IMG/VR virus record: IMGVR_UViG_3300022602_000234
Location: 1-37,559 of that record
From: a virus
Strand: one strand, 5' to 3'
DNA: 37,559 nt
Below are positions 11,075-33,455 of this stretch, piece after piece. Made by a program: the position numbers and the translations under genes. Each line of letters begins with the position of its first letter. Position 1 is the first letter of the stretch. The notes below the pieces were generated by a model. It was not told the origin of the DNA, did not search any database, and was given only the letters and a program-made list of their open reading frames with translations.

Positions 11075-11082
11075 TATTTATT
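11075..11082 (-). promoter_or_regulatory. Late-type box AATAAATA
   Basis: Six bases before the ATG at 11068. Confidence 0.6.
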
Positions 11083-19023: not shown

Positions 19024-19029
19024 ACTATC

Positions 19030-19058
19030 AGTATAAAGTTTCTTTGTAGGGTGGTCAA
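19030..19058 (-). promoter_or_regulatory. Early-type promoter for the HNH gene
   Basis: TTGACC (19058-19053), 17-bp spacer, TATACT (19035-19030), GATAGT, ATG. Confidence 0.75.
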
Positions 19059-19066
19059 GCTCTTTT

Positions 19067-19390: not shown

Positions 19391-19409
19391 GTTGTTGTTT
19401 GGTTGTTGT

Positions 19410-19613
19410 TTATTTGATTTCTTCGATTGTTACTTTGAATGATTGATCGGCTGTATTCCATTGTCCGGACTTCAGAACGAACTCCGTCTTTGATCCATTA
19501 GAAGCTACTGTAGATACAGAAGCCCATCCGACATCATGGTCGGTGATAGAGCTAATGATGGATTCAGTAATCTGATCCTTGGTTAGGACGGTTGGTTCTT
19601 TCTTAATTTTCAT
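19410..19613 (-). CDS. Hypothetical small protein, 67 aa
   Basis: MKIKKEPTVLTKDQITESII begins a small alpha/beta protein with no recognised family. Early-type promoter with exactly 6 bases to the ATG; the A-rich start ATGAAAATTAAG is shared by many genes with this promoter type. Confidence 0.65.
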   Translation of the reverse strand: MKIKKEPTVLTKDQITESIISSITDHDVGWASVSTVASNGSKTEFVLKSGQWNTADQSFKVTIEEIK

Positions 19614-19619
19614 ACGATC

Positions 19620-19648
19620 AGTATAAAGGATCTTTATAGGATCGGCAA
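19620..19648 (-). promoter_or_regulatory. Early-type promoter for the 19410-19613 gene
   Basis: TTGCCG (19648-19643), 17-bp spacer, TATACT (19625-19620), GATCGT, ATG. Confidence 0.75.
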
Positions 19649-19686
19649 GCCTTAAAGGCCATAGCCATCAAAGTCTTCGTCCATAG

Positions 19687-19872
19687 CTATTCTAGGGTAC
19701 TATAAAGGTGATATACGTGTCGACCGATATGACCATTGAATGTCATACGCTCTACCCAAGAACCATGGGTCGTATCCATCATGGACATAAAGAGCAATGA
19801 TGGCTTCCGTACTTCATAGCCTAGAAGGCGAAGGAAGAAGGTATAAGGATTATTCAGGAATGATTTAAACAT
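19687..19872 (-). CDS. Hypothetical small protein, 61 aa
   Basis: MFKSFLNNPYTFFLRLLGYE has an amphipathic, aromatic start that may associate with a membrane; the rest is polar with several His and Met. No family recognised. Early-type promoter with 6 bases to the ATG. Confidence 0.6.
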   Translation of the reverse strand: MFKSFLNNPYTFFLRLLGYEVRKPSLLFMSMMDTTHGSWVERMTFNGHIGRHVYHLYSTLE

Positions 19873-19878
19873 ACATTA

Positions 19879-19907
19879 ATAATAGCAGCAGCTGCAGGAT
19901 ACGGCAA
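19879..19907 (-). promoter_or_regulatory. Early-type promoter for the 19687-19872 gene
   Basis: TTGCCG (19907-19902), 17-bp spacer, TATTAT (19884-19879), TAATGT, ATG. Confidence 0.7.
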
Positions 19908-19915
19908 TAGGAAAT

Positions 19916-19985
19916 TGCCTACAATAGCTAGTTTCTGTCATGAACACTACTTGCAAGATATCCTTGAAAGCTGCTATTGTAGGCA
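19916..19985 (+). repeat. 13-bp inverted repeat in front of the plus-strand HNH gene
   Basis: TGCCTACAATAGC (19916-19928) and GCTATTGTAGGCA (19973-19985) are perfect inverted copies around a 44-base loop. The right arm ends inside the late-type box at 19984-19991. Long transcripts through here would fold; transcripts starting from the late box would not contain the stem. Confidence 0.75.
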
Positions 19986-19991
19986 TAAATA
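19984..19991 (+). promoter_or_regulatory. Late-type box CATAAATA
   Basis: Eight bases before the HNH start at 20000 and overlapping the right arm of the inverted repeat. Confidence 0.5.
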
Positions 19992-19999
19992 TTATAGTC

Positions 20000-20647
20000 A
20001 TGAACAATACAAATGCTACGCAGGAACTATCTTATTACGAAAAGAATAAAAAACGAATAACAGCACGTAGAGCTGCGAATAGAGAGCTGCTTAGAATTAA
20101 GGCTAATGAATTCTACGCAAGAAATAAAGAGAAAGTAAAGGCTAAAAATAAGCAATACCGTTTAAGCAATTTAGAAAAGGTAAGAGAGTATTTTAAAACT
20201 AATAAAGAAGTATTAAAGGAACAAAGGCAAAAACATTATATTGAGAATAGAGACCGTATTCTAGCTAGAAGAAGAAAACTTATTAAGCATAGACTCAACA
20301 ACGATCCTTTATTTAAAATAGCTCACACACTAAGATGCAGAGTTTTAGATGCTCTTAAAGGAAGATATAAGAGTGCTCCTACTCTAGAGCTTCTAGGATG
20401 TTCTATTGAAGAAGCCAAAAAGCATATAGAAACTCAATGGCTGCCTGGTATGACTTGGGATAATCATTCTCTACATGGATGGCATATAGACCATATTATA
20501 CCTATCGATACTTTTGATCTAGCCGACTATAAACAACAGAAGGTGTGCTTTCACTATTCTAATCTCAGACCTCTTTGGGCTACTGATAATCTTTCTAGAC
20601 CTAAAGACGGTTCAGATATCGTCGTTGATAATCTCGTATTGAAATGA
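20000..20647 (+). CDS. HNH homing-endonuclease-like protein, 215 aa
   Basis: The N-terminal half is a long Arg/Lys/Asn-rich helix with repeats of the YxxNxExxRAxxxxYR type (ELLRIKANEFYARNKEKVKAKN, YIENRDRILARRRK). The C-terminal half has LLGCSIEEAKKHIETQW and the HNH core GWHIDHIIPIDTFDL ... FHYSNLRPLWATDNLSR. This is a known phage HNH architecture. I start at ATG 20000, after the late box, not at the ATG 20 codons upstream, which lies in the hairpin loop. Its last 36 bases overlap the opposing gene at 20612. Confidence 0.85.
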   Translation: MNNTNATQELSYYEKNKKRITARRAANRELLRIKANEFYARNKEKVKAKNKQYRLSNLEKVREYFKTNKEVLKEQRQKHYIENRDRILARRRKLIKHRLNNDPLFKIAHTLRCRVLDALKGRYKSAPTLELLGCSIEEAKKHIETQWLPGMTWDNHSLHGWHIDHIIPIDTFDLADYKQQKVCFHYSNLRPLWATDNLSRPKDGSDIVVDNLVLK

Positions 20648-20818
20648 TTCAATAGAACATTCGTAAGCATCAGCTATAGCATCTCCTAGATCCTCTTCTA
20701 GGTTACAACTATCAGGAAAGACAAATTCAATCTCTACTGGCAGTTCGGCCAACAGATCCTCATCGGTTGTATCCCAGTAGATATCCGTGACCTTGATCTT
20801 ATTGGTTAGCTCAGGCAT
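20612..20818 (-). CDS. Hypothetical acidic protein, 68 aa
   Basis: MPELTNKIKVTDIYWDTTDE starts a strongly acidic small protein, beta then helical, with no recognised family. It overlaps the upstream gene by 8 bases and runs 36 bases into the opposing HNH gene, so its C-terminus may have been altered when the HNH gene arrived. Confidence 0.6.
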   Translation of the reverse strand: MPELTNKIKVTDIYWDTTDEDLLAELPVEIEFVFPDSCNLEEDLGDAIADAYECSIESFQYEIINDDI

Positions 20819-21065
20819 ACAGTTCCTCCATAGTTGATTGATTGCACACCTTCTGAATGTTCTCCATCCTACCAGCTAACAAAGCCTTATCTGTGTAGTA
20901 TTTAACACCAGAATCAATATCATTCTGAATTGTATAACCCTCTACAACGTATCCAGAGGCGTTTGCTTGGATCATACTTGAAAGCCATCCAATAATGTAG
21001 GTTGAAGACTCTCCGGCCTCTTCCATAAGCCCGATGAGATGTTTTACGGTGTTCTTATTTTTCAT
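20811..21065 (-). CDS. Hypothetical helical protein, 84 aa
   Basis: I start at ATG 21065 (MKNKNTVKHLIGLMEEAG) because the early-type promoter places its TATACT exactly 6 bases upstream; a longer frame would cross that promoter. Helical with a GYVVEGYTIQNDIDSG segment. No family recognised. Confidence 0.65.
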   Translation of the reverse strand: MKNKNTVKHLIGLMEEAGESSTYIIGWLSSMIQANASGYVVEGYTIQNDIDSGVKYYTDKALLAGRMENIQKVCNQSTMEELYA

Positions 21066-21071
21066 ACGATC

Positions 21072-21100
21072 AGTATAAAGGAAGGCAAAAGGAACTTCAA
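21072..21100 (-). promoter_or_regulatory. Early-type promoter for the 20811-21065 gene
   Basis: TTGAAG (21100-21095), 17-bp spacer, TATACT (21077-21072), GATCGT, ATG. Confidence 0.75.
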
Positions 21101-21111
21101 GCGGAAAAGTA

Positions 21112-21483
21112 CTATCTCTTGGAGGCAGCCAGAAGAGCAGATTGAGGATCCATGTAAAGATCTCCAACCTTATTACCACTTCCTGGGGCTACATCCTTAG
21201 CAATAACAGCGAAAGCAGTATCAGTACCCATCTTCAAAGGACGGACAATAGACTTCGTAGTAGGACCTTTAACCAAAAGACCATCGAATTCAGGAGTATT
21301 AAGCTTCTTAAGAGTAGCTACTACCTGATCAATAGGAGCTGATTGATACTTCTGATTCCCGCCATTAAAAATAACGTAAGTAATGTCCTTGCTTACGCCC
21401 TCGTCTCCAGAAAAACTGCCTATTGTTTCGTTAACAAAATTATTGAATTTATTCATATTATTATTTATGTTCTTATTTTTCAT
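21112..21483 (-). CDS. Hypothetical protein with nested early and late starts, 123 or 114 aa
   Basis: Two starts are plausible. ATG 21483 follows an early-type promoter (TATACT, 6 bases). ATG 21456, nine codons in, follows a CATAAATA late-type box by 5 bases and gives MNKFNNFVNETIGSFSG, which resembles the MSFKQFVTEA tag (V-N-E followed by T). The body is a beta-rich globular domain (DITYVIFNGGNQKYQSAP, TAFAVIAKDVAPGSGNKVGDLY). No enzyme motif. Both products may be made at different times (inference). Confidence 0.65.
   Translation of the reverse strand: MKNKNINNNMNKFNNFVNETIGSFSGDEGVSKDITYVIFNGGNQKYQSAPIDQVVATLKKLNTPEFDGLLVKGPTTKSIVRPLKMGTDTAFAVIAKDVAPGSGNKVGDLYMDPQSALLAASKR
21462..21469 (-). 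promoter_or_regulatory. Internal late-type box CATAAATA
   Basis: Lies inside the first codons of the longer frame, 5 bases before the in-frame ATG at 21456. Confidence 0.5.
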
Positions 21484-21489
21484 ACGATC

Positions 21490-21518
21490 AGTATATTGGA
21501 TTTCTGTTGGAACCTCAA
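21490..21518 (-). promoter_or_regulatory. Early-type promoter for the 21112-21483 gene
   Basis: TTGAGG (21518-21513), 17-bp spacer, TATACT (21495-21490), GATCGT, ATG. Its -35 overlaps the stop of the gene upstream. Confidence 0.75.
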
Positions 21519-21706
21519 GCAGGAAGTTCAATAAAGAGAACCTCCTCTCCATGATAACTTATATAGCCATCCTTGGATGTTTTTTTATCATAACCCTCAA
21601 AGAACTCATCCTTGGTAATTCCCTCCTCATCCAGAACTTCCTGGAGATCAAAGTTGGTGGTCTTGCCAGTGTAGAGATCTACTTCTAGGTATTTCTTATT
21701 TTTCAT
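21515..21706 (-). CDS. Hypothetical acidic protein, 63 aa
   Basis: MKNKKYLEVDLYTGKTTNFD begins a small acidic protein (EVLDEEGITKDEFFEGYDKK) with no recognised family. Early-type promoter with 6 bases to the ATG; its stop overlaps the next promoter. Confidence 0.65.
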   Translation of the reverse strand: MKNKKYLEVDLYTGKTTNFDLQEVLDEEGITKDEFFEGYDKKTSKDGYISYHGEEVLFIELPA

Positions 21707-21712
21707 ACTATT

Positions 21713-21741
21713 ATTATGGCTTGGTTATAAGGAAAGGTCAA
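21713..21741 (-). promoter_or_regulatory. Early-type promoter for the 21515-21706 gene
   Basis: TTGACC (21741-21736), 17-bp spacer, CATAAT (21718-21713), AATAGT, ATG. Confidence 0.7.
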
Positions 21742-21743
21742 GT

Positions 21744-21962
21744 CTATTCTTCGTCAGAGTCTTCTTGAGCCTCTTTAATAGCTCCCTTTACATCCTTAAC
21801 CCTATCATTCTTACACAATATACCATCCTTCAGGAAGATGAGATCGTATTGATCGTCAGCAATAATCTCAGCTACTACATCGATATCTACTCCTTTAGGG
21901 ATAGAAACAAGAGTAACTCCGAGCAGTTCAAAGTCCGACTTGATGGTGTTCTTATTTTTCAT
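21744..21962 (-). CDS. Hypothetical acidic protein, 72 aa
   Basis: MKNKNTIKSDFELLGVTLVS begins a small alpha/beta protein with acidic C-terminus (EAQEDSDEE). No family recognised. It has an early-type promoter with exactly 6 bases to the ATG. Confidence 0.65.
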   Translation of the reverse strand: MKNKNTIKSDFELLGVTLVSIPKGVDIDVVAEIIADDQYDLIFLKDGILCKNDRVKDVKGAIKEAQEDSDEE

Positions 21963-21968
21963 ACGTTC

Positions 21969-21997
21969 AGTATATTGGAATTTGGAAGGAACTGCAA
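21969..21997 (-). promoter_or_regulatory. Early-type promoter for the 21744-21962 gene
   Basis: TTGCAG (21997-21992), 17-bp spacer, TATACT (21974-21969), GAACGT, ATG. Confidence 0.75.
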
Positions 21998-21999
21998 GC

Positions 22000-22197
22000 T
22001 TAAACCTCTACATCATACTCCTCCATAAGATCTTGAAGAGAGTCCAAAGCATACTCTACAACCCAGGCCTTAAAAGACTCTCTATCCTTTAGGTTATGTC
22101 CACCTTTAGTAGCGTTCTTTTGAAGCTGTTTTAGAACATCATCTCCCCAATGATTTTGAAGTTGAAGATAGATGGTGTCGGTGTTCTTATTTTTCAT
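22000..22197 (-). CDS. Hypothetical helical protein, 65 aa
   Basis: MKNKNTDTIYLQLQNHWGDD begins a helical protein ending LQDLMEEYDVEV. No family recognised. Its promoter is nearly identical over 40 bases to that of 21744-21962, so the two units may derive from a duplication of the promoter cassette. Confidence 0.65.
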   Translation of the reverse strand: MKNKNTDTIYLQLQNHWGDDVLKQLQKNATKGGHNLKDRESFKAWVVEYALDSLQDLMEEYDVEV

Positions 22198-22203
22198 ACG
22201 TTC

Positions 22204-22232
22204 AGTATATTGGAATTTGGTTGGAACTGCAA
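22204..22232 (-). promoter_or_regulatory. Early-type promoter for the 22000-22197 gene
   Basis: TTGCAG (22232-22227), 17-bp spacer, TATACT (22209-22204), GAACGT, ATG. Confidence 0.75.
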
Positions 22233-22242
22233 GTCTAGATTA

Positions 22243-22273
22243 GGGGATCCAGACCCTTATCGTCTGGATCCCC
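22243..22273. repeat. Perfect 12-bp hairpin after the GC-rich gene
   Basis: GGGGATCCAGAC (22243-22254) and GTCTGGATCCCC (22262-22273) with a 7-base loop. It follows the stop of the minus-strand gene at 22299 and could end its transcript or protect its 3' end, but no strong U-run follows on the minus strand. Confidence 0.7.
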
Positions 22274-22298
22274 ATTGGGCGGCTTCTTGGCAGAATTC

Positions 22299-22655
22299 TT
22301 ATGCCGTGACGGCCTGAGCCTTCTCAGCGGCCCGAGCTGCGATGGCGGCCTTCGATCGTGAAGGACGAGCCTTCTTGGCCGTCTGAACCTCTGTACGAAC
22401 CTCTTGGATCTTCTCGTCCAGGGTCTTCTTCGCCTTCTCTTTAACCTTGGCGCCTCGGCCTACGAAGGTCTCAAGGAGCTGACGAATGCTTCCAGCCTTC
22501 TGGATCTTGTTCTTCAAGTTCGAACCAAAGCAAGTATAAGAACCCGAGCCTTGGTTACACTCGATGACCGGGGTCGGGAGCGTATTATAGGTCTCGAAGT
22601 AGTTCTCAAGATACTCGATGACTTCGACTGGTACTGCGTTGTTGTTTGTCTGCAT
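22299..22655 (-). CDS. GC-rich gene, degenerate paralogue of the zinc protein at 30505, 118 aa
   Basis: Residues about 25-70 (LPTPVIECNQGSG, TCFGSNLKNKIQKAG, RQLLETFVGRG) align with LKIPCSKCDGSSTAFGSNLEGKIKKAG...LLDTFTCRAC of the 30505 gene, but most zinc Cys are lost. The C-terminus is a Lys/Ala/Arg-rich helix (RPSRSKAAIAARAAEKAQ), suggesting nucleic-acid binding. Base composition is clearly GC-richer than its neighbours, a sign of separate origin or codon adaptation. The leader is the CAA-type, about 36 bases from the promoter's expected start. Confidence 0.65.
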   Translation of the reverse strand: MQTNNNAVPVEVIEYLENYFETYNTLPTPVIECNQGSGSYTCFGSNLKNKIQKAGSIRQLLETFVGRGAKVKEKAKKTLDEKIQEVRTEVQTAKKARPSRSKAAIAARAAEKAQAVTA

Positions 22656-22697
22656 GGTGGTGTTGTTTTTGGGTTGGTTGTTTTATTCTACTCTTCT

Positions 22698-22726
22698 ATT
22701 ATGATTGATCTTTAAAGGAACTTCAA
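22698..22726 (-). promoter_or_regulatory. Early-type promoter with a real 5' leader
   Basis: TTGAAG (22726-22721), 17-bp spacer, CATAAT (22703-22698). Expected start near 22691, about 36 bases before the ATG at 22655, unlike the other early promoters here. Confidence 0.65.
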
Positions 22727-22728
22727 GC

Positions 22729-22962
22729 TTAATCCTCGTCTCCATCTTCATCCTCGTCTCCGTCTTGAAGAACGAGATAAACATCCACACCCTCTCCTTC
22801 TAGAGTGAATACATCTTCAGTGAATTCATCACTAAGATAGACTGTCTGATTGAGGTCCTCTTCTGAGCACTTATTGAGTTGATCACGTAGGTCTTTGTAT
22901 GTCATGGTGGTGTTGTTTTTGGGTTGGTTGTTACTGCCGGAAACGTTGTTCTTATTTTTCAT
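22729..22962 (-). CDS. Small acidic protein with MTYKDLRDQLNKCSEEDLNQ core, 77 aa
   Basis: From Met 20 onward (ATG 22905) the sequence MTYKDLRDQLNKCSEEDL resembles a widespread small bacterial and phage protein type of unknown role, ending in a run of Asp/Glu (QDGDEDEDGDED). The early promoter sits 6 bases before ATG 22962, which adds an in-frame MKNKNNVSGSNNQPKNNTT. That extension is a translation of the CAA-type leader, identical for 30 bases to the untranslated leader of the 22655 gene. Either start may be used. Confidence 0.65.
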   Translation of the reverse strand: MKNKNNVSGSNNQPKNNTTMTYKDLRDQLNKCSEEDLNQTVYLSDEFTEDVFTLEGEGVDVYLVLQDGDEDEDGDED

Positions 22963-22968
22963 ACATTC

Positions 22969-22997
22969 ATTATGGCTCATTGATGGAGGAACCGCAA
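22969..22997 (-). promoter_or_regulatory. Early-type promoter for the 22729-22962 gene
   Basis: TTGCGG (22997-22992), 17-bp spacer, CATAAT (22974-22969), GAATGT, ATG. Confidence 0.7.
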
Positions 22998-22999
22998 GA

Positions 23000-23176
23000 T
23001 TATTCGCAGGAACCTTCATCGATGTCGATAACCACAGCCTGACAATCTACATCGATAGAAACATCTCGGATCTGATACTGATAGCCATTAGGATCAATAA
23101 TAGCAATCTCCATATCAGCAAGTTGATTCTTCTGGTTCCGCTCTTCTAGGTACTGAATGAATTCTTTAATTTTCAT
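23000..23176 (-). CDS. Hypothetical acidic protein, 58 aa
   Basis: MKIKEFIQYLEERNQKNQLA begins a helix, followed by beta-like YQYQIRDVSIDVDCQAVVID. Acidic end. No family recognised. Early-type promoter with exactly 6 bases to the ATG and the usual ATGAAAATTAAA start. Confidence 0.65.
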   Translation of the reverse strand: MKIKEFIQYLEERNQKNQLADMEIAIIDPNGYQYQIRDVSIDVDCQAVVIDIDEGSCE

Positions 23177-23182
23177 ACGATC

Positions 23183-23211
23183 AGTGTATTGGAGTTCAGA
23201 AGGAACTGCAA
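23183..23211 (-). promoter_or_regulatory. Early-type promoter for the 23000-23176 gene
   Basis: TTGCAG (23211-23206), 17-bp spacer, TACACT (23188-23183), GATCGT, ATG. Confidence 0.7.
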
Positions 23212-23215
23212 GCCT

Positions 23216-23329
23216 TTAATGCTTGGAAATTTCAATGCCAAGGAAGACTAGAAAGCCTACGCAGGTCATTCCACCGAGGATCAGGGCTCCTATCAAGATG
23301 TCTAATGAATCGATGTCTTTAATTTTCAT
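23216..23329 (-). CDS. Small membrane protein, 37 aa
   Basis: After MKIKDIDSLD comes one hydrophobic helix (ILIGALILGGMTCVGFLVFL) and a short polar end. It has a full early-type promoter with 6 bases to the ATG, which is the main reason to accept so short a gene. Function unknown. Confidence 0.65.
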   Translation of the reverse strand: MKIKDIDSLDILIGALILGGMTCVGFLVFLGIEISKH

Positions 23330-23335
23330 ACGATC

Positions 23336-23364
23336 AGTATATTGGAGGTTGAAAGGAACTGCAA
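23336..23364 (-). promoter_or_regulatory. Early-type promoter for the 23216-23329 gene
   Basis: TTGCAG (23364-23359), 17-bp spacer, TATACT (23341-23336), GATCGT, ATG. Confidence 0.75.
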
Positions 23365-23366
23365 GC

Positions 23367-23519
23367 TTAATCTTCCCAAACAGCTAGATCACTTACCCAA
23401 TCGGAAATTAAATCGTTAATCTTTCGTTCAAGATCTTGTTGATTAACTTCTTTATTATGATCTTCAAGGAGAGCATTTTTGAGGGCTTGGATCGTTGTAT
23501 CAGGTATTTCAATTTTCAT
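23367..23519 (-). CDS. Hypothetical small helical protein, 50 aa
   Basis: I start at ATG 23519 (MKIEIPDTTIQALKNALLED) because the early-type promoter lies 6 bases upstream. The open frame continues 70 codons further but crosses this promoter. Two helices, acidic, Trp at both ends of the C-terminal helix. Function unknown. Confidence 0.65.
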   Translation of the reverse strand: MKIEIPDTTIQALKNALLEDHNKEVNQQDLERKINDLISDWVSDLAVWED

Positions 23520-24821: not shown

Positions 24822-25142
24822 ATGAATGTTGTTATTACTAATATTAAATTAGCTACTCCTAGTGAAGTTGATTCTATTAGAACATCTTGGAGAAACATTC
24901 CAGAACGTGTTTATAAGGTAACTTTCTCCGATAATAAAGTTTATTTAGTTTATAGGATAGATGAACCTAAACATGTCCGTGTTAGTCAGCCTTGGGAAGC
25001 CATTAACCTTAAAACCGGCTATACTGCTGGTCATTTTGATGAAGAATCCCCTGTTGCTAAGGCTATTAAGCATTTTGAACTCAGAAACGAACTCAATCCA
25101 TCCACCGTTAAAGCTTTTGAGGAGTTAATCGACGAACTATAA
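24822..25142 (+). CDS. Constant-tail array gene 1, 106 aa
   Basis: First of 16 tandem paralogues. Head: MNVVITNIKLATPSEVDSIR, then VYKVTFSDNKVYLVYRID. Linker KAIKHFELRNEL and tail NPSTVKAFEELIDEL. I start at ATG 24822, after the late box; codons further upstream are in the promoter. The Asp codon of the tail is GAC, so no start lies inside it. Function unknown; the late box suggests late expression. Confidence 0.75.
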   Translation: MNVVITNIKLATPSEVDSIRTSWRNIPERVYKVTFSDNKVYLVYRIDEPKHVRVSQPWEAINLKTGYTAGHFDEESPVAKAIKHFELRNELNPSTVKAFEELIDEL

Positions 25143-25145
25143 ATA
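25138..25145 (+). promoter_or_regulatory. Late-type box TATAAATA (array gene 2)
   Basis: A perfect TATAAATA 5 bases before the ATG at 25151; it contains the stop codon of gene 1. Confidence 0.7.
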
Positions 25146-25150
25146 CTCTT

Positions 25151-25546
25151 ATGGATTTCAATCAATTAGTACTAGAAGAAATAAATCCCTTTGAACCTAA
25201 TTATACTGTTCTTCGTATAGCTACTAAAGAAGATAAAGATACACTAATTAAAGGATTAAAATATTCTGCAGATAAGGAACACAAACAGCAAATTTATGAT
25301 ACTAAGTATTTTGTTGTTGAAGACCAAGAAGGTACAATCATGGCTGTTCACTGGAATACAAGCAATGAAACATTTTATATACGGAATTTAAATAAACCTA
25401 ACATTCCCCGTCTCGGGAGTACACTATTTAACGTTAAGAGTATTGAGGGAGTTGAGCTCTTAAAGGCTATTGAACATTGGGAACTTAAACATTCCCTGAA
25501 CCCCTCTACCGTTAAAGCTTTTGAGGAGTTAATCGACGAACTATGA
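25151..25546 (+). CDS. Constant-tail array gene 2 with N-terminal tag, 131 aa
   Basis: It starts MDFNQLVLEEINPFEP, resembling the MSFKQFVTEA tags (V-L-E followed by E), so this member may carry signals at both ends. Head: TVLRIATKEDKDTLIKGL and FVVEDQEGTIMAVHW, which carries the D-x-x-G motif. Tail NPSTVKAFEELIDEL, like gene 1. Overlaps gene 3 by 4 bases (ATGA). Confidence 0.75.
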   Translation: MDFNQLVLEEINPFEPNYTVLRIATKEDKDTLIKGLKYSADKEHKQQIYDTKYFVVEDQEGTIMAVHWNTSNETFYIRNLNKPNIPRLGSTLFNVKSIEGVELLKAIEHWELKHSLNPSTVKAFEELIDEL

Positions 25547-25905
25547 ACGAATATCAAGTTATTAGAGATGCTAATGAACAAGAGTTATCTCTCCTTAGCA
25601 AGAGGATGTCCGGAGATCTAAAGAGGCCTTTTGATAAAGGATGGCTAGTAAGATTAATAGATAGAGAGCGCTTAATTGTACCTAACCTTACAACAGGTAG
25701 TGATGTTAGAGTAACTGGCTGGAAGTATATTGTTTTTACTATGAGAGGAGGGTTTGATCATTATACTACCGATAAAACTAAAGTAACTTCAAAGAAGGGA
25801 GCCAATACTATCTTACTTGATAAAGCTATTAAACATTGGGAATTCAAAAAGACTCTCAATCCTTCTACAGCTAAGACTTTCGAAGAGTTAATCGACGAAC
25901 TATAA
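25543..25905 (+). CDS. Constant-tail array gene 3, 120 aa
   Basis: Head MNEYQVIRDANEQELSLLSK with KGWLVRLIDRE and VFTMRGGFDHYTTDK is clearly related to gene 12 (VVRDANIQELAEADD, KGWIVNCKG, VMFTKHGRWINYSTD). Tail NPSTAKTFEELIDEL. Its last 66 bases (25840-25905) are identical to those of gene 4, although the heads are unrelated. Starts by ATGA overlap with gene 2. Confidence 0.75.
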   Translation: MNEYQVIRDANEQELSLLSKRMSGDLKRPFDKGWLVRLIDRERLIVPNLTTGSDVRVTGWKYIVFTMRGGFDHYTTDKTKVTSKKGANTILLDKAIKHWEFKKTLNPSTAKTFEELIDEL

Positions 25906-25908
25906 ATA
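25901..25908 (+). promoter_or_regulatory. Late-type box TATAAATA (array gene 4)
   Basis: Contains the stop of gene 3; 6 bases before the ATG at 25915. Confidence 0.7.
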
Positions 25909-25914
25909 ACACAT

Positions 25915-26247
25915 ATGGATATTAAAGTAATAGGAATAGCTAAAGACGGTTGGGGTATGAGGTATTCCGATAGTATTATCTATAATGTTAACATCAATAA
26001 CGTTCCTACTTTAGTTGAATTCCTTCCCGGGGGGTCTGGTGATAGTGATTGGCTAAGCATTAGACTTATTAACGGCAAGTCTTGGGGGAATGCTGGTAAC
26101 CTCTATAAACTACTTCATCTTGATGACAATTTACCTCTCCAGGAACTTACCCTCAGTATAGAAAAGGCTATTAAAGACTTTGAATTCAAAAAGACTCTCA
26201 ATCCTTCTACAGCTAAGACTTTCGAAGAGTTAATCGACGAACTATAA
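25915..26247 (+). CDS. Constant-tail array gene 4, 110 aa
   Basis: Head MDIKVIGIAKDGWGMRYSDS, then VEFLPGGSGDSDWLSIRLIN. Linker KAIKDFEFKKTL and tail NPSTAKTFEELIDEL. The 66-base 3' end (26182-26247) is identical to gene 3, pointing to recent duplication or gene conversion of the tail. Own late box. Confidence 0.75.
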   Translation: MDIKVIGIAKDGWGMRYSDSIIYNVNINNVPTLVEFLPGGSGDSDWLSIRLINGKSWGNAGNLYKLLHLDDNLPLQELTLSIEKAIKDFEFKKTLNPSTAKTFEELIDEL

Positions 26248-26250
26248 GTA
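26243..26250 (+). promoter_or_regulatory. Late-type box TATAAGTA (array gene 5)
   Basis: Contains the stop of gene 4; 5 bases before the ATG at 26256. Confidence 0.65.
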
Positions 26251-26255
26251 CTATA

Positions 26256-26561
26256 ATGACATATAAACAAATATTATCTAAGGTCAAAATAGAAGAGATT
26301 ATTCCTACATTAGGAGGAAAGGTATTTGAAGTTGACTTTACTTTAGACGGGGAATGGTATCAGTTTATGTACTATCCAGATTATCCTTCAGATAATTACT
26401 TCTCCGATCTTCCAGAAGAATTCGAGCCTTATACTAGTCCTTACGCTCAAGGGGAAAGTGTTGAAGAAGCATTTGTTAACCTTATTAAACACTATCAGTT
26501 AAAAAAGTCTTTATCTCCGGGAACAGCTAAGACATTCTCTGAGTTAATCGACGAACTATAA
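26256..26561 (+). CDS. Constant-tail array gene 5, 101 aa
   Basis: It starts MTYKQILSKVKIEEIIP, similar in layout to T4 capsid-targeting sequences (MKTYQEFIAEA), with I-E-E as a possible cut. Head is acidic and aromatic (EVDFTLDGEWYQFMYYPDYP). The tail is slightly diverged: LSPGTAKTFSELIDEL. Tail Asp codon GAC. Confidence 0.75.
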   Translation: MTYKQILSKVKIEEIIPTLGGKVFEVDFTLDGEWYQFMYYPDYPSDNYFSDLPEEFEPYTSPYAQGESVEEAFVNLIKHYQLKKSLSPGTAKTFSELIDEL

Positions 26562-26564
26562 ATA
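26557..26564 (+). promoter_or_regulatory. Late-type box TATAAATA (array gene 6)
   Basis: Contains the stop of gene 5; 5 bases before the ATG at 26570, with the same flank as at gene 2. Confidence 0.7.
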
Positions 26565-26569
26565 CTCTT

Positions 26570-26896
26570 ATGGATTTTAAAGTTGAAAGAAGAGCTACAG
26601 AAGAAGAGCTAGGACATGTAAAAAGGAAGCGGAACCACGCTTATTCAAACAGAGACATAAAGGATATAGAGGGCTGGGTAGTTGATACTTTTGGTTTAAA
26701 CAAAAAGCTTGTTATTATTAGTAATAACGATGAAAATGGAAGAATGTATAACTACATTGACCCCGATGATTTACTATACATTGGTCTTTGGAGTTGGGAT
26801 GATAAATTAGGTCAGGCTATTAAAAAATGGGAACTTAAACAATCTGTAAATCCTTCTACAGCTAAAACTTTCGAAGAGTTAATTGACGAGCTATAA
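26570..26896 (+). CDS. Constant-tail array gene 6, 108 aa
   Basis: Head MDFKVERRATEEELGHVKRK recalls genes 2, 3 and 12 (A-T/N-x-x-E-L), followed by IEGWVVDTFGLNKKLVIISN. Linker QAIKKWELKQSV and tail NPSTAKTFEELIDEL. Tail Asp codon GAC; own late box. Confidence 0.75.
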   Translation: MDFKVERRATEEELGHVKRKRNHAYSNRDIKDIEGWVVDTFGLNKKLVIISNNDENGRMYNYIDPDDLLYIGLWSWDDKLGQAIKKWELKQSVNPSTAKTFEELIDEL

Positions 26897-26899
26897 GTA
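26892..26899 (+). promoter_or_regulatory. Late-type box TATAAGTA (array gene 7)
   Basis: Contains the stop of gene 6; 5 bases before the ATG at 26905. Confidence 0.6.
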
Positions 26900-26904
26900 T
26901 CTAG

Positions 26905-27246
26905 ATGGAGCCTTCTATTAAAATCATTAGTCGTTTGGAGGGAAGTGAAACACCTTATTGGTCTATTGGTGAAAAGGCTTATTATAAGCTCATTGTTAAT
27001 AATAAAAAGTGTCACTTTTCCTACAGAGATGACGGAACTTGTATGCTTTTTGTTGATGGTTATAAGAAGCCTGGGTTAGATGTTGATAACGCCATTTATG
27101 ATAATAAGGAATGTGAAAAACTATTCCATATTCGGGCATTAGATCTTGATAACCTTATTGTTAAGGCTATTAAAGATTGGGAACTTAAACAGTCTTTAAA
27201 TCCATCTACAGCTAAAACTTTCGAAGAGTTAATCGATGAACTCTAA
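26905..27246 (+). CDS. Constant-tail array gene 7, 113 aa
   Basis: Head MEPSIKIISRLEGSETPYWS, then YYKLIVNNKKCHFSYRDDGTCMLFVDG; linker KAIKDWELKQSL; tail NPSTAKTFEELIDEL. Here the tail Asp codon is GAT, which creates the ATG of gene 8 (11-base overlap). Internal head sequence unlike the others. Confidence 0.75.
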   Translation: MEPSIKIISRLEGSETPYWSIGEKAYYKLIVNNKKCHFSYRDDGTCMLFVDGYKKPGLDVDNAIYDNKECEKLFHIRALDLDNLIVKAIKDWELKQSLNPSTAKTFEELIDEL

Positions 27247-27556
27247 ACCTTCTCCAATTACTTTTACAAGTGTTACAAACGACTTAGTTGGTCGTAGAAA
27301 AGAGCAGGGGTATCGTTTAGTTGATAACGAGGGAGGGATTTGGGAATATGTACTTGAACAAGGAGCTAATAGAAGATTTTTAGCCTTTATTAAAGTTCCT
27401 AAAAAATACAAACCTTTATTAGGTCTTAGTACTGCTATAAGCATGTTTAATAGTATTGAGAAGGAAGCTTTTAAAGCTATTGATAAACATAACTTCAAAA
27501 AAGAGCTCAATCCTTCTACAGCTAAGACTTTTGAGGAGTTAATTGACGAGTTATAA
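27236..27556 (+). CDS. Constant-tail array gene 8, 106 aa
   Basis: Starts inside the tail of gene 7 (M-N-S), with the tail-encoded GAAGAG 7 bases upstream as ribosome site. Head: YRLVDNEGGIWEYVLEQG, a clear D-x-x-G-x-x-W motif, then VPKKYKPLLGL. Tail NPSTAKTFEELIDEL with GAC Asp codon. Confidence 0.75.
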   Translation: MNSKPSPITFTSVTNDLVGRRKEQGYRLVDNEGGIWEYVLEQGANRRFLAFIKVPKKYKPLLGLSTAISMFNSIEKEAFKAIDKHNFKKELNPSTAKTFEELIDEL

Positions 27557-27559
27557 ATA
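27552..27559 (+). promoter_or_regulatory. Late-type box TATAAATA (array gene 9)
   Basis: Contains the stop of gene 8; 4 bases before the ATG at 27564. Would serve genes 9-12. Confidence 0.65.
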
Positions 27560-27563
27560 ATAT

Positions 27564-27923
27564 ATGGATCTTTCCGATTTAACAATTGATGATATTAAGC
27601 TTCACACCCGAGGCAATATTACTAGTAGTAACACTTATTGGAAAGAGTTTTATTTTACTTTAAACGGTAAGAAATATAGAGTAGAGATTCGAGCATTTGA
27701 AGATGGTACTCCGTTTCACTTTAAATGGGAGCCAATTACTCCTTACAAGATTAATAAGTTTTACGAATTTGATAATGGTTGGAAGAAAACAGGTATGGAA
27801 GGCTCACCTTTTTCTATACGTCTTATAACCGAACTACTAAAGAAAGAAGAAGCGTATAATCTTAAGAAGACTGTTAACCCGACAACAGCTAAAACATTTG
27901 AGGAATTAATCGATGAGCTCTAA
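27564..27923 (+). CDS. Constant-tail array gene 9, 119 aa
   Basis: Head MDLSDLTIDDIKLHTRGNIT, then WKEFYFTLNGKKYRVEIRAF; tail NPTTAKTFEELIDEL. GAT Asp codon creates the start of gene 10. First of four genes joined by 11-base overlaps (9-12). Confidence 0.75.
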   Translation: MDLSDLTIDDIKLHTRGNITSSNTYWKEFYFTLNGKKYRVEIRAFEDGTPFHFKWEPITPYKINKFYEFDNGWKKTGMEGSPFSIRLITELLKKEEAYNLKKTVNPTTAKTFEELIDEL

Positions 27924-28245
27924 TATAATTATAAAAGTAATAAAGGGACCTTATTCTGATATTTGGAGAGATCCAACTTTTGATTCAAAAGAATTTTCCG
28001 ATCATTTATACGATATCAATATGTGGGATAGTGACATCACGTGGGATCGTAGCGGTAATTGGTTAATAGCAAAATCAAAGGATTATATGAAATGGTATCA
28101 TAACTATTGGAAGTTTAAAGAAGTGAATCCAAGAATTGACATAGCAGAAATAATTAATGATAAAATTGATTTTATACATAATCTTAAACAATCTGTTAAT
28201 CCTGATACAGTTAAAACATTTGAGGAGTTAATCGATGAACTTTAA
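27913..28245 (+). CDS. Constant-tail array gene 10, 110 aa
   Basis: Head MSSNIIIKVIKGPYSDIWRD resembles the minus-strand member at 11791 (NVKIIKGPFLLIDEYP). Tail NPDTVKTFEELIDEL. Starts inside gene 9's tail and contains the start of gene 11. Confidence 0.75.
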   Translation: MSSNIIIKVIKGPYSDIWRDPTFDSKEFSDHLYDINMWDSDITWDRSGNWLIAKSKDYMKWYHNYWKFKEVNPRIDIAEIINDKIDFIHNLKQSVNPDTVKTFEELIDEL

Positions 28246-28564
28246 TATTATAAAAGAGGCTATACATAATGAGTATGTAGACTTTAAAGTAAAAGTTAAC
28301 GCTGGTCCTTTCCCTGGTGATCATTATGGATATATACCTGAGGCAAAAATATATAAGGGCACTATATTAAGCAATGAACACGTTACATTTATATTAAACC
28401 CTAATACTAATCATGTAACTATACAAAACTTTGGTGCCCATTGGTTTGGACCAAAGGCTGAACTTGATAAACAAGTTTTAGATGCTATTCATACTTACGA
28501 CCCTCGACTTGTTATACAACCCTCAACACTAAAAGCCTTTGGAGAGCTAATCGATGAGCTCTAA
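28235..28564 (+). CDS. Constant-tail array gene 11, 109 aa
   Basis: One of the most diverged members: head MNFNIIKEAIHNEYVDFKVK with GDHYGYIPEAKIYKGT, linker DAIHTYDPRLVI and tail QPSTLKAFGELIDEL. Starts inside gene 10's tail; the upstream site is GAGGAG. Contains the start of gene 12. Confidence 0.75.
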   Translation: MNFNIIKEAIHNEYVDFKVKVNAGPFPGDHYGYIPEAKIYKGTILSNEHVTFILNPNTNHVTIQNFGAHWFGPKAELDKQVLDAIHTYDPRLVIQPSTLKAFGELIDEL

Positions 28565-28928
28565 TAAAACATGTACAGTAGTTCGAGATGCTAACATTCA
28601 GGAACTCGCTGAAGCTGATGATTACTTTTTACAAGGTGGACAAGGTATGTTAGTTAAACCAATAGATAAGGGTTGGATAGTTAACTGTAAAGGAGCTGAA
28701 TATAGAATATTTCCTAACTATGTTAATCATATGCAACCCTATTTAGATGATGGTACTTTTGTTATGTTTACTAAACATGGTCGCTGGATTAATTACTCTA
28801 CCGATCGAGTACCAACAAACATCTTACAAAACTCTGAACTAAAAAGAGCTATTAAAGTTTGGGAAGTAAAGAAGCATATTAATCCAACAACAGCTAAAAC
28901 ATTCGAAGAGCTTATTGAAGAACTTTAA
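28554..28928 (+). CDS. Constant-tail array gene 12, 124 aa
   Basis: Head TCTVVRDANIQELAEADDYF is the closest relative of gene 3. Tail NPTTAKTFEELIEEL is the only one with Glu in place of Asp/Asn (GAA codon), and it is followed by a 51-base gap instead of an overlapping gene. Starts inside gene 11's tail. Confidence 0.75.
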   Translation: MSSNKTCTVVRDANIQELAEADDYFLQGGQGMLVKPIDKGWIVNCKGAEYRIFPNYVNHMQPYLDDGTFVMFTKHGRWINYSTDRVPTNILQNSELKRAIKVWEVKKHINPTTAKTFEELIEEL

Positions 28929-28962
28929 AGTAGTTCTTGTATTTCTTTTTCTATTCCTTTAT

Positions 28963-28970
28963 AATAAATA
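28963..28970 (+). promoter_or_regulatory. Late-type box AATAAATA (array gene 13)
   Basis: In the only real gap of the array, 9 bases before the ATG at 28980. Would serve genes 13-16. Confidence 0.5.
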
Positions 28971-28979
28971 CTTTGATAG

Positions 28980-29420
28980 ATGGACTATAAAGATACAACG
29001 TTTAAAGTTAAAAGAAAATACTTTTGTTCATCTAAAGATGGTTCTCTACATAGAACAAAACAGGGTAAGTATGATTCTCCTTACTATATGATCAAGGATA
29101 GTAAGGGCGGGGAATGGGAGTTTATGAATTCAGCTACTGAGGAAGAACGTAAACAAGGTCATGAAACATATAGTTATGGGAAGATTATAGAAAGTTTTCC
29201 AGATTGGTTTAGAGATCTTTTTAATAAAGAACATAAAGAGACATTACCTCCCAGCTTTAACTTTGGTTATGAGAAGATAGAATATAAACACCCTTATTGG
29301 AAATATTTAAATCATTTAGCTATTGAGGTATTTCCTAAATTAGTTAAGAACTGGGAGATTAGTAAAGATTTAAATCCATCTACAGCTAAAACTTTTGAGG
29401 AGTTAATCAATGAACTTTAA
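28980..29420 (+). CDS. Constant-tail array gene 13, 146 aa
   Basis: Longest member. Head MDYKDTTFKVKRKYFCSSKD, then YYMIKDSKGGEWEFMNSATE with the D-x-x-G-x-x-W motif and an extra loop (PSFNFGYEKIEYKHPYWKY). Tail NPSTAKTFEELINEL has Asn (AAT) in place of Asp, still creating the ATG of gene 14. Confidence 0.75.
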   Translation: MDYKDTTFKVKRKYFCSSKDGSLHRTKQGKYDSPYYMIKDSKGGEWEFMNSATEEERKQGHETYSYGKIIESFPDWFRDLFNKEHKETLPPSFNFGYEKIEYKHPYWKYLNHLAIEVFPKLVKNWEISKDLNPSTAKTFEELINEL

Positions 29421-29712
29421 AGTAATACATTCTAGACCAAGAACATCTATAGAAACTGATTATTTCTTAAAAGATGAAGATAATAATGATTGGACTTTTA
29501 GATTAACAAAAACAAAAGCAGGAGGGTTAAGAGAGTTTGCTATGTATCCTAAACATTGGAAAGCTTTGTTAACATCTAACTCTTTAGCTAATTTAACTCG
29601 AAAGAGTTATTTGTATGATTTAGCTATGAAAGCTATTGAGGCCTGGAATGTAAAGAACCAAATTAACCCATCTACAGCAAAAACATTTGAGGATTTAATC
29701 GATGAGTTATAA
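29410..29712 (+). CDS. Constant-tail array gene 14, 100 aa
   Basis: Head MNFKVIHSRPRTSIETDYFL, then KDEDNNDWTFRLTKTKAGG and YPKHWKALL, related to genes 8 and 13. Tail NPSTAKTFEDLIDEL. Starts inside gene 13's tail (GAGGAG upstream) and contains gene 15's start. Confidence 0.75.
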   Translation: MNFKVIHSRPRTSIETDYFLKDEDNNDWTFRLTKTKAGGLREFAMYPKHWKALLTSNSLANLTRKSYLYDLAMKAIEAWNVKNQINPSTAKTFEDLIDEL

Positions 29713-30055
29713 TATTAAAATAGAAGAAAAGAAAGGACCTAGTTATAGTCCCTATAATGATAGTGAGTATTATCAGTATTACTTTAAGATACCTGATAGG
29801 GAAGGTAAAGTAACTGAGTATTTGATTGAAACAAGTACTAATCCTCATACTGAACGTACTAACTATTCTGTCTTTGAAAGATTAAAGGAAGGTGCTAAAG
29901 AGTATATGTACATTAACCCATCAGCTCAATGGGCTGTAGATAGATTACCGTTCACTCTAAAGGAAGCTGAAAAGGCTGTAGAAACTTACGAACTTAGAAA
30001 TCAACTCAATCCTGATACTGTTAAGAAATTTGGAGGATTAATCGATGAATTGTAA
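29702..30055 (+). CDS. Constant-tail array gene 15, 117 aa
   Basis: Head MSYNIKIEEKKGPSYSPYND with YYFKIPDREGKVTEYLIETS; it shares the KGP motif with gene 10. Tail NPDTVKKFGGLIDEL, somewhat diverged. Overlaps both neighbours by 11 bases. Confidence 0.75.
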   Translation: MSYNIKIEEKKGPSYSPYNDSEYYQYYFKIPDREGKVTEYLIETSTNPHTERTNYSVFERLKEGAKEYMYINPSAQWAVDRLPFTLKEAEKAVETYELRNQLNPDTVKKFGGLIDEL

Positions 30056-30317
30056 AGTAATACATGTTGAAAAGGAAAATGAAGAACGCCCCGGACTCAC
30101 TATCTATACTATAGAACGTCAACCTGTTGGTTTTAAGTTTAAAGTTAACATGTGGGATATTGGTATGTTTACTATTAAGTCTTTAGAAAATAAAACAATC
30201 GGTTATAGTACCGAATTAAGAAATAAAGCTCTGGAAGCTATTAATAAATATAAGTTAAAACAAGATCTAAATCCAAGTACTGCTAAAACTTTTGAAGAGT
30301 TGATTGACGAGCTTTAA
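30045..30317 (+). CDS. Constant-tail array gene 16, 90 aa
   Basis: Shortest and last member. Head MNCKVIHVEKENEERPGLTI resembles gene 14 at its start. Linker KAINKYKLKQDL, tail NPSTAKTFEELIDEL with GAC Asp codon, fitting the absence of an overlapping next gene. An early-type promoter follows directly; no terminator seen. Confidence 0.75.
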   Translation: MNCKVIHVEKENEERPGLTIYTIERQPVGFKFKVNMWDIGMFTIKSLENKTIGYSTELRNKALEAINKYKLKQDLNPSTAKTFEELIDEL

Positions 30318-30319
30318 GC

Positions 30320-30348
30320 TTGCCAGTTCCTTCTGCTCCATTCATACT
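30320..30348 (+). promoter_or_regulatory. Early-type promoter for the 30355 gene
   Basis: TTGCCA (30320-30325), 17-bp spacer, CATACT (30343-30348), AGGAGC, ATG. Confidence 0.7.
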
Positions 30349-30354
30349 AGGAGC

Positions 30355-30486
30355 ATGAAAATTAAAACAATCAAGATTGTCTTGAAAGACATCAAGGTTC
30401 GACAACCATGGGCTCCTCCAACGAGGAAGATCCAGTCCAAAAAAATCTACAAGCGATCGGAGAATAGACTTGCTTGTTCCTTCTGA
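30355..30486 (+). CDS. Small basic protein, 43 aa
   Basis: MKIKTIKIVLKDIKVRQPWA is followed by PPTRKIQSKKIYKRSENRLA: strongly basic, possibly nucleic-acid binding. The early-type promoter ends 6 bases before the ATG. Its last codons double as the -35 region of the next promoter. Function unknown. Confidence 0.6.
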   Translation: MKIKTIKIVLKDIKVRQPWAPPTRKIQSKKIYKRSENRLACSF

Positions 30487-30498
30487 AGCCCTTATACT
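30470..30498 (+). promoter_or_regulatory. Early-type promoter for the 30505 gene
   Basis: TTGCTT (30470-30475), 17-bp spacer, TATACT (30493-30498), AATAGT, ATG. The -35 lies inside the upstream coding end. Confidence 0.75.
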
Positions 30499-30504
30499 AA
30501 TAGT

Positions 30505-30948
30505 ATGAAAATTAATAAAGAAGAGTGGATCAAATCTTATAACGAAACCAAAAAGCTTCCAAGCTTAAAAATTCCTTGCTCAAAGTGCGATGGAAGCTCA
30601 ACAGCGTTTGGTTCTAACCTTGAAGGAAAGATTAAGAAGGCTGGCGGTCTCGATATACTTCTTGATACTTTTACTTGTCGGGCTTGTAACAGTACCGCTA
30701 AGCCGAAGACGGTTAAGGTGACTGTTAAGCGAGAGAAAATCGAAGAGAAAGAAGAGGTCGTTTATGTCATTCCTAAGATGAAGGGTTTCATTCCGACTAA
30801 CGCTTTCTTGAAAGATACTCCTGAACTGGTGCAGTCGATGACGAACTTTAGCTGCGTATCACCTCAGCTTTACTTGAATAATAATCGCGGATGCCGAGGA
30901 TGCGTTTACTTCGATAACTGCAACTGCGCCCTGAAGAAGGCCGCCTAA
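30505..30948 (+). CDS. Zinc-ribbon-like protein, 147 aa
   Basis: Residues about 24-65 hold IPCSKCDGSSTAFGSNLEGK ... FTCRACNS, i.e. two C-x2-C knuckles about 35 residues apart, as in a zinc ribbon. The C-terminus has a second Cys cluster (FSCVSPQLYLNN, NRGCRGCVYFDNCNCALKK). The first module is shared, without most Cys, by the GC-rich gene at 22299. It is GC-richer than most neighbours. A DNA- or RNA-binding role is plausible. Confidence 0.7.
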   Translation: MKINKEEWIKSYNETKKLPSLKIPCSKCDGSSTAFGSNLEGKIKKAGGLDILLDTFTCRACNSTAKPKTVKVTVKREKIEEKEEVVYVIPKMKGFIPTNAFLKDTPELVQSMTNFSCVSPQLYLNNNRGCRGCVYFDNCNCALKKAA

Positions 30949-32450: not shown

Positions 32451-33091
32451 TGAAATATAAACTGAATCAGTATCCAAACGAAGAACATATCTACGTTGTC
32501 ACTACAGACAATCAATACGATCTTGCTATGCTCTTCTTTAGAGCTCAAGAGTATTATGAGTCTCCCTTTAAGCAAATTAAGGGCAAAGAGTTTACTATTA
32601 TGAAAGCTATGGAGCTTTATTCTAAGAAGCTCGGCAATGGAGCCTTTACGTATGCTGCTGACTGGGCAGGGTTTAATGTACCTGGTAAGGTTCTTGATAC
32701 TCTCTACGGCCCTGGTTACAAATATTCTATTACTGATCCTAATGAGTATGATGGTCATATGGAAGAGATTCTTAATACGATAAAGTCTAAAGAGTTCTAT
32801 CTTATTGGAGCTGTTAAGAAGGATGCTAGTACTATTGAGCATGAACTCTGTCATGCTCGTTTTGCTCTTGACAAGAACTACAAGAAGAAAGTTCGTGATA
32901 TTCTAAAGAAGCTTCCAGAGAAGATTAAAAAGAAGATTGAAGACTATCTATTGTCTATAGGTTACTGTAAGGGTGTACTTGAAGACGAACTACAAGCCTA
33001 TATTGCTAATGACTTTCATTATCTTGTTGAGAATATTAAATTCACAGCAAAAGAAGATAAGAAGCTTTGGGAGGTTCATTGCTCCTTTTAG
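32450..33091 (+). CDS. HExxH-containing protein, putative zinc peptidase, 213 aa
   Basis: The segment STIEHELCHARFALDKNYKKK contains H131-E-L-C-H135, the zincin HExxH motif, and GVLEDELQAYIAND about 45 residues later offers the third (Glu) ligand. That is a gluzincin-like layout. I recall similar proteins from large phages, uncharacterised. The N-terminal half is unrecognised. No signal peptide, so it would act in the cytoplasm. Confidence 0.6.
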   Translation: MKYKLNQYPNEEHIYVVTTDNQYDLAMLFFRAQEYYESPFKQIKGKEFTIMKAMELYSKKLGNGAFTYAADWAGFNVPGKVLDTLYGPGYKYSITDPNEYDGHMEEILNTIKSKEFYLIGAVKKDASTIEHELCHARFALDKNYKKKVRDILKKLPEKIKKKIEDYLLSIGYCKGVLEDELQAYIANDFHYLVENIKFTAKEDKKLWEVHCSF

Positions 33092-33092
33092 C

Positions 33093-33121
33093 TTGCGTTT
33101 CCTTTCTAAACCAACCATAAT
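33093..33121 (+). promoter_or_regulatory. Early-type promoter for the 33129 gene
   Basis: TTGCGT (33093-33098), 17-bp spacer, CATAAT (33116-33121), 7 bases to ATG. The -35 follows the upstream stop. Confidence 0.7.
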
Positions 33122-33128
33122 AATACCT

Positions 33129-33455
33129 ATGAAACTTAAAACCGTCGCATTAACCCTACTACTTGCTCTTACCTTTACTCCAGCTTCTAAGGCTTGGGTA
33201 GCTTATGGAGGAGGATATCGAGGAGGCTATGGCTACGGAGGAGGTTATGGTTATCGAGGAGGCTATGGGTATGGAGGAGGGTATGGGTATGGAGGATACG
33301 GTTGTGGAGCTTATGGAGCTCTTCCTTGGATTGCTCTTGGTGTTGGAGCTGCTGCAGCTCTAGCTCCTATCATTGCACCTCCTGTCTATGTAACTCCTCC
33401 TGCTCCAGTCTACGTTCAACCTGCTCCAGTCATTAACAATTATTACAGTCGCTAG
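33129..33455 (+). CDS. Secreted Gly/Tyr-rich repeat protein, 108 aa
   Basis: A standard Sec signal peptide: basic start MKLKTV, hydrophobic core ALTLLLALTF, and cleavage after TPASKA. The mature part begins with about ten GGYGY/RGGYGY repeats, then a hydrophobic Ala-rich stretch (ALGVGAAAALAPIIAPP) and a Pro/Val end (VYVTPPAPVYVQPAP). Similar proteins occur in bacteria; a periplasmic or surface role in the infected cell is likely. Its own early promoter. Possibly host-derived. Confidence 0.75.
   Translation: MKLKTVALTLLLALTFTPASKAWVAYGGGYRGGYGYGGGYGYRGGYGYGGGYGYGGYGCGAYGALPWIALGVGAAAALAPIIAPPVYVTPPAPVYVQPAPVINNYYSR

Follow-up and report, generated by a model that had tools for sequence, protein, structure and literature searches.

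Why should sixteen consecutive phage genes, whose products have diverged so strongly, all end in the same short peptide? The question is raised by a linear 37.6-kb piece of DNA from an uncultivated phage (IMG/VR record IMGVR_UViG_3300022602_000234; 37,559 nt, the whole of which is called the window below), in which 16 plus-strand open reading frames (ORFs) of 90-146 aa at positions 24822-30317 carry a common tail at the C-terminus. A first-pass annotation of this DNA had pointed to three further members at 11081-12105, and these are indeed present on the minus strand with the same tail at the C-terminus, giving 19 members in total. We consider it probable that this tail corresponds to the capsid targeting sequence (CTS) of phage T4, placed at the C-terminus, and that the variable N-terminal parts (here “variable heads”) are effectors that are packaged in the virion and injected into the host.

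The common C-terminal end of the 19 members is ...NPSTAKTFEELIDEL. Six positions do not vary among the 19: T(-13), F(-9), L(-6), I(-5), E(-3) and the final L, with the stop codon numbered as -1. When proteins were compared pairwise over their last 12 residues, 170 pairs scored at least 30 in the window, whereas each of the five genomes used for comparison had 0-2 such pairs. Therefore, the likeness of the tails is not due to chance. The ratio of nonsynonymous to synonymous differences per site (pN/pS) was 0.15 for the last 11 codons and 0.21 for the last 16, whereas it rose to 0.74 in the 12 codons from -28 to -17, so the helix before the tail is just loosely conserved. The shared block of about 27 residues described in the first-pass annotation thus has to be shortened: the 16 genes do end alike, but near-invariance is confined to the last ~16 residues. 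Synonymous sites are near saturation across the tails (pS = 0.79), which excludes a recent DNA duplication as the source of their likeness and, together with the low pN/pS, indicates that the tails are old copies maintained by selection at the protein level.

The T4 internal proteins carry an N-terminal CTS of 10-19 residues, and mutational work on the CTS of IPIII (MKTYQEFIAE) has linked positions 4 and 7 to targeting and positions 8 and 10 to processing (PMC9026906). With the tail written as AKTFEELIDEL against the CTS, the four fixed residues of its F-x-x-L-I-x-E motif (F, L, I and E) sit on CTS positions 4, 7, 8 and 10. A profile built from the 19 tails was compared with the N-termini of 245 T4 ORFs and placed IPIII, IPII, gp23, IPI, Alt and gp24 at ranks 1, 2, 4, 8, 9 and 10, respectively. 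Of the eight T4 head proteins in this set known to be processed by gp21, the top 10 thus took in six, while 5000 column-permuted profiles recovered 0.8 on average, none of them reaching six. In the reverse test, with the T4 IPII/IPIII CTS (MKTYQEFIAEA) as the query, the array tails, which are mutually related and count as a single event, came top among the 9,915 11-mers of the window. Close behind them were the N-termini of other window genes (MNKDAQFLAEA and MDKELQYLAEA). Across N-termini generally, the tail profile was weakly enriched in the window and not at all in G004, one of the contigs of the nearest relatives (G001-G006).

A TAARTA box is located 4-9 nt before the ATG in all eight array genes that start outside the previous gene, and in seven of the eight it is the T4-type TATAARTA (Fisher's test, array genes against others: P = 2e-6). 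In G001, TATAAATA stands ahead of virion structural or fibre-like genes, at a distance of 6-10 nt. Judging from these boxes, the array has late-type promoters and is predicted to be expressed late. The genes flanking the array on both sides have a repeated CTTGC-GTTCC ... TATACT element directly before the ATG instead, which we read as an early promoter. A 62-nt element, present in 10 copies at 19008-23375 and also near 30317-30505, is located ahead of many genes and ends in TATACTGATCGT-ATGAAAAT with CTTGC.GTTCC about 20 nt upstream. It has the look of a strong promoter of early genes whose mRNAs would be almost leaderless. The proposal of the first-pass annotation that the tail is a sorting signal on a diversified cargo, possibly packaged in the virion, gains from the T4 CTS match and from the late-type promoters; packaging itself is a step that we infer.

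Some window genes also have a CTS-like stretch at the N-terminus. An N-terminal SFKQF[FV]TE is present in two of the outlying members, 18 (11391-11801, minus strand; 136 aa; MSFKQFVTEA) and 19 (11081-11401, minus strand; 106 aa; MSFKQFFTES; start set at ATG 11401), and in a leave-one-out scoring these two have the worst and the second worst tail of the 19, respectively. Their neighbour, member 17 (11791-12105, minus strand; 104 aa; start set at ATG 12105, with a TAAATA box 6 nt before it), is without the N-terminal motif and has a perfect consensus tail. Such an erosion of the tail in members 18 and 19 is as a redundancy of two signals would give. In member 18, the N-terminal CTS-like stretch sits ahead of a variable head homologous to that of array member 13 (28980-29420; E = 2.5e-6). 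On the minus strand, about 16 further genes begin in a CTS-like way, with N-termini of the types MxKDxxLLAEAYxxI and MxFDRLVESILEE and a mixed remainder. A regular-expression CTS motif matched 9 of the 72 non-array N-termini (members 18 and 19 counted) against 1.3 expected, and the TAARTA late box precedes 11 of 16 genes with an N-terminal CTS against 3 of 33 others (P = 4e-5).

If the tail acts in this way, 19 small proteins would be made late in infection and would bind the assembling prohead core through an amphipathic helix of their last ~11 residues (KTFEELIDEL), as the T4 internal proteins do through their first 10 residues. The variable heads would then be trapped in the phage head and co-packaged with the DNA. 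In the next host, the injected proteins would most likely act immediately, each on a host target of its own, for instance a protein of restriction or of another defence system. The idea that the variable parts act on host targets leans on the precedent of T4 IP1, IP2 and IP3, which are non-homologous injected inhibitors with the signal alone in common, each blocking a different GmrSD enzyme (PMC12373910). In the window, 12 of the 171 pairs of variable heads are detectable at E < 0.05, against about one in shuffled controls, in agreement with the strong divergence noted at first pass. By this measure the variable heads are weakly related paralogues, a putatively diverse cargo with little in common beyond the tail. 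Their divergence bears on a rather unlikely alternative, in which the tail does target the prohead core and the proteins are structural core or head-assembly fillers, not injected effectors. Nineteen paralogues sharing one targeting tail could pack the core, and loss of IPIII in T4 results in aberrant heads (PMC9026906); however, so few detectable pairs are more like the outcome of an arms race than of a structural role, and T4 IP1-3 are injected inhibitors.

It is unlikely that the tail docks onto another phage or host protein, such as the sliding clamp, RNA polymerase or a takeover complex, and not onto the capsid core. As a docking module, a short conserved helix at the C-terminus is generic, and the clamp-binding peptides of T4 are also C-terminal. 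Yet the tail profile ranked the T4 clamp-binding C-termini of gp43, gp55 and gp33 at 147, 77 and 61 of 248, while the N-termini of head-processed proteins ranked top, and the late-type promoters point to virion timing. A sliding-clamp-binding tail with an LDFL-like C-terminus was rejected on these ranks.

AlphaFold2 models of two members, 3 (25543-25905, plus strand; 120 aa) and 14 (29410-29712, plus strand; 100 aa), had a mean pLDDT of 75 and a pTM of 0.62-0.65 and predict a beta-sheet head, a long helix, a break at NP and a terminal helix. With moderate confidence, the tail is modelled as this separate C-terminal helix (residues 107-119 in member 3 and 87-99 in member 14). A Foldseek search with one model against PDB and BFVD gave no match with E < 0.1, Pfam and PHROGs scans of ten tail-bearing proteins gave sub-threshold matches at best, and a profile search against PDB sequences gave nothing significant. 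The first-pass annotation had held that an ordinary core helix, or a known domain, would speak against a signal; the predicted helix is a separate one, and no family library matched the tail. It is very unlikely that the tail is simply a conserved helix at the C-terminal end of one rapidly evolving paralogous domain, without signal function, even though the variable heads are weakly homologous and the helix before the tail belongs to the predicted domain. Against this reading stands the contrast in pN/pS between the last 11 residues and the codons just upstream (0.15 against 0.74); nor would one expect a core helix to agree with T4 CTS N-termini at each position, or to decay beside an N-terminal CTS.

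Seven array junctions have the next ATG 11 nt within the preceding tail, with GAGGAG-like codons upstream of it, so the tail codons double as translation signals; in the outlying trio, too, the next ATG is 11 nt within the preceding tail. One further array junction is a 4-nt overlap, and at some others the stop codon is part of TATAARTA. That the tail is kept for its DNA, as the ribosome binding site, start codon, promoter or recombination site of the next gene, is nevertheless hardly credible, since its amino acids are kept at near-saturated synonymous sites and the same tail is found where the following gene does not overlap; pN/pS refutes conservation at the DNA level as the main cause and leaves it plausible as a secondary role.

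The 16 plus-strand genes are arranged as follows. Member 1 (24822-25142; 106 aa; C-terminal tail LNPSTVKAFEELIDEL) was given its start at ATG 24822, the TTG at 24795 in the ORF list lying upstream, and has the late box TATAAGTA 7 nt before the ATG. The same box is found 5 nt before the ATG of members 5 (26256-26561; 101 aa) and 7 (26905-27246; 113 aa). The box TATAAATA stands 5 nt before the ATG of members 2 (25151-25546; 131 aa) and 6 (26570-26896; 108 aa), 6 nt before that of member 4 (25915-26247; 110 aa) and 4 nt before that of member 9 (27564-27923; 119 aa). Member 2 has an extra N-terminal CTS-like extension, MDFNQLVLEE. Member 13 (146 aa) has a TAAATA box 9 nt before its ATG. The start codon of member 8 (27236-27556; 106 aa) is 11 nt inside the tail of member 7, and member 10 (27913-28245; 110 aa) overlaps the tail of member 9 by 11 nt. 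Overlaps of 11 nt are also found for members 11 (28235-28564; 109 aa), 12 (28554-28928; 124 aa), 15 (29702-30055; 117 aa) and 16 (30045-30317; 90 aa). The variable head of member 12 is related to that of member 3 (E = 1e-11).

Several observations weigh against the view that the tail is a targeting signal of the T4 type. First, the signal is C-terminal in 19 of 19 members and not N-terminal like the T4 CTS, and the tail proteins are for this reason not filed under the T4 internal protein family; the tail would work like the T4 CTS yet be no member of that family. To our knowledge, all described short CTSs are N-terminal and are cut off by gp21. In the tail, a single Leu comes after I-D-E. Cutting at I-D-E|L would take off just this residue and leave the signal in place, so the tail does not readily fit the processing half of the CTS role. 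Second, most members are not basic, whereas the T4 internal proteins are; the isoelectric points of the whole proteins range from 4.2 to 9.4 and exceed 8.5 in 4 of the 19. Third, the four invariant columns alone performed weakly in the T4 test (two of eight in the top 10, P = 0.11), which, set against the strong result of the full profile, indicates that the signal resides in the whole motif; gp22 and gp68 were not picked by the ranking of T4 N-termini. Member 2, the third bearer of an N-terminal CTS, has a good tail, and the erosion test accordingly weakens to P = 0.04.

Searches for relatives and for head genes also count on this side. With the tail and the variable heads as queries, no relatives were found among 50,697 phage records, IMG/VR and GTDB genomes, a search in which short queries have weak power and from which close records of this genome may be missing; the few pattern matches are read as chance. 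The tail was also absent from G001-G006 and from 80 further loci. The 37.6-kb fragment has no prohead protease, scaffold or capsid genes, and major capsid protein and protease families were not found in G001-G006, which are likewise fragments. A T4-type head is therefore inferred for this phage. In a distant relative, Flavobacterium phage immuto, genes for a T4-type portal, prohead protease and major capsid protein are annotated. A 605-aa structural protein of G001 was tried as a marker to place the phage and was rejected as too widespread.

Returning to the reading of the tail as a C-terminal CTS, we tentatively go one step further: the locus could be a cassette array, in which an uncleaved C-terminal packaging tag is borne by fast-diverging injected effectors. 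Since the tag codons supply the ribosome binding site and start of the next gene, or part of its late promoter, each unit of variable head and tag would be swappable. Counting the ~16 N-terminally tagged proteins, about 35 proteins would be carried in the phage head. The candidate packaged proteins with CTS-like N-termini, all on the minus strand, include those preceded by a late box at 1783-2283 (MKFDRLVDLILEG), 8638-8901 (MINKDAQLLAEAY), 9311-9748 (MSKDVKLIAEAY), 10748-11068 (MINKDAKLLAEAY), 13400-13606 (MTLSEAYKKVLKES), 14678-15181 (MLFDRLVESILQE) and 15894-16943 (MKKDNVLLAESY), and further ones at 8306-8623 (MKNRETEFLIEAY), 8914-9309 (MDKELQYLAEAY), 9757-9969 (MEFDKTLNSLLEES), 10404-10748 (MNKDAQFLAEAY) and 12915-13403 (MIFDRLVESILEE). 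The protein at 8914-9309 has homologues in G001 and immuto, whose N-termini differ yet are CTS-like (MRLEALMEA and MRLLELLREA), which suggests that the signal has been exchanged, or has evolved, apart from the cargo. The C-terminus of the protein at 12915-13403, MHCWKGYKKKGTKKLPSGKIVNNCVKNV, presumably resembles the basic end of marine T4-like phage proteins.

An NT5C 5′-nucleotidase (4777-5505, minus strand) has a C-terminal basic domain with ESFKLFFEKSIDE ahead of it. In G001, this basic domain is a separate gene with the CTS-like start MTFKEYVLEKSIDE, and the NT5C proteins of G001 and G002 have ESFN[ED]YV plus about 10 residues at the C-terminus. In T4, the C-terminus of gene e.7 (NC_000866, 69968-70303; locus L016, 9968-10303), IEAINAFIDELDEE, is the best tail match among 248 T4 C-termini, and e.7, which is near ipII and ipIII, might be a candidate C-terminally tagged T4 protein.

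If the tail is a C-terminal CTS, T4-type capsid targeting can work from the C-terminus with the signal retained, which is relevant to where in the CTS the prohead core is bound. There would also be a sequence handle on injected effectors in phages with cargo that lacks homologues, and a single locus with 19 candidate inhibitors to screen against bacterial defence systems. For loading T4-type heads with proteins, a C-terminal tag of this kind would be of use. Elsewhere in the window, a tRNA-Tyr(GTA) gene is located at 7065-7151 (minus strand). A Septu defence system cleaving tRNA-Tyr has been described (PMC13096335), and the tRNA gene could be a counter-measure to such cleavage. A gene at 32973-33455 (plus strand) encodes a glycine/tyrosine-rich protein with GGYGYGGGYGYRGGYG repeats and a signal-peptide-like segment.

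Short C-terminal peptides that draw unrelated cargo into a protein shell are known from the cargo-loading peptides of encapsulins and from the C-terminal helix of the P22 scaffold; these differ from the window tail in shell and in sequence, and the likeness is one of description. Two features of the window recur in phage immuto, a small protein that is a packaging candidate (gp082) and a basic domain at the C-terminus (gp080), and several immuto N-termini are CTS-like; unlike the window, immuto has no tail-bearing proteins. In the giant Salmonella phage SPN3US, a C-terminal propeptide of the prohead protease gp245 is inferred to target the protein into the prohead (PMC5694885), although there it is a self-cleaved part of one enzyme with A-X-E specificity and is no shared tag. 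The T4 ADP-ribosyltransferase Alt is packaged, injected and processed by gp21 at both ends (PMC5694885). Its C-terminal 63-residue propeptide is a precedent for C-terminal processing, but it is long and cleaved, and the Alt end has no likeness to the tail (rank 245 of 248). T4 also combines variable cargo with a constant N-terminal signal in three genes (PMC3012670, PMC12373910). Therefore, the first-pass statement that no phage family has such a layout was too broad as to cargo and signal, and holds as to the position of the signal and the number of genes. Like IPI, IPII and IPIII of Tequatrovirus, the window proteins are small diverged cargo with a short terminal amphipathic signal, with hydrophobic residues at CTS positions 4, 7 and 8 and Glu at 10. 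Unlike them, they are mostly non-basic and bear the signal at the C-terminus, where it is not obviously cleaved off, in 19 genes of one fragment, 16 of them in tandem.

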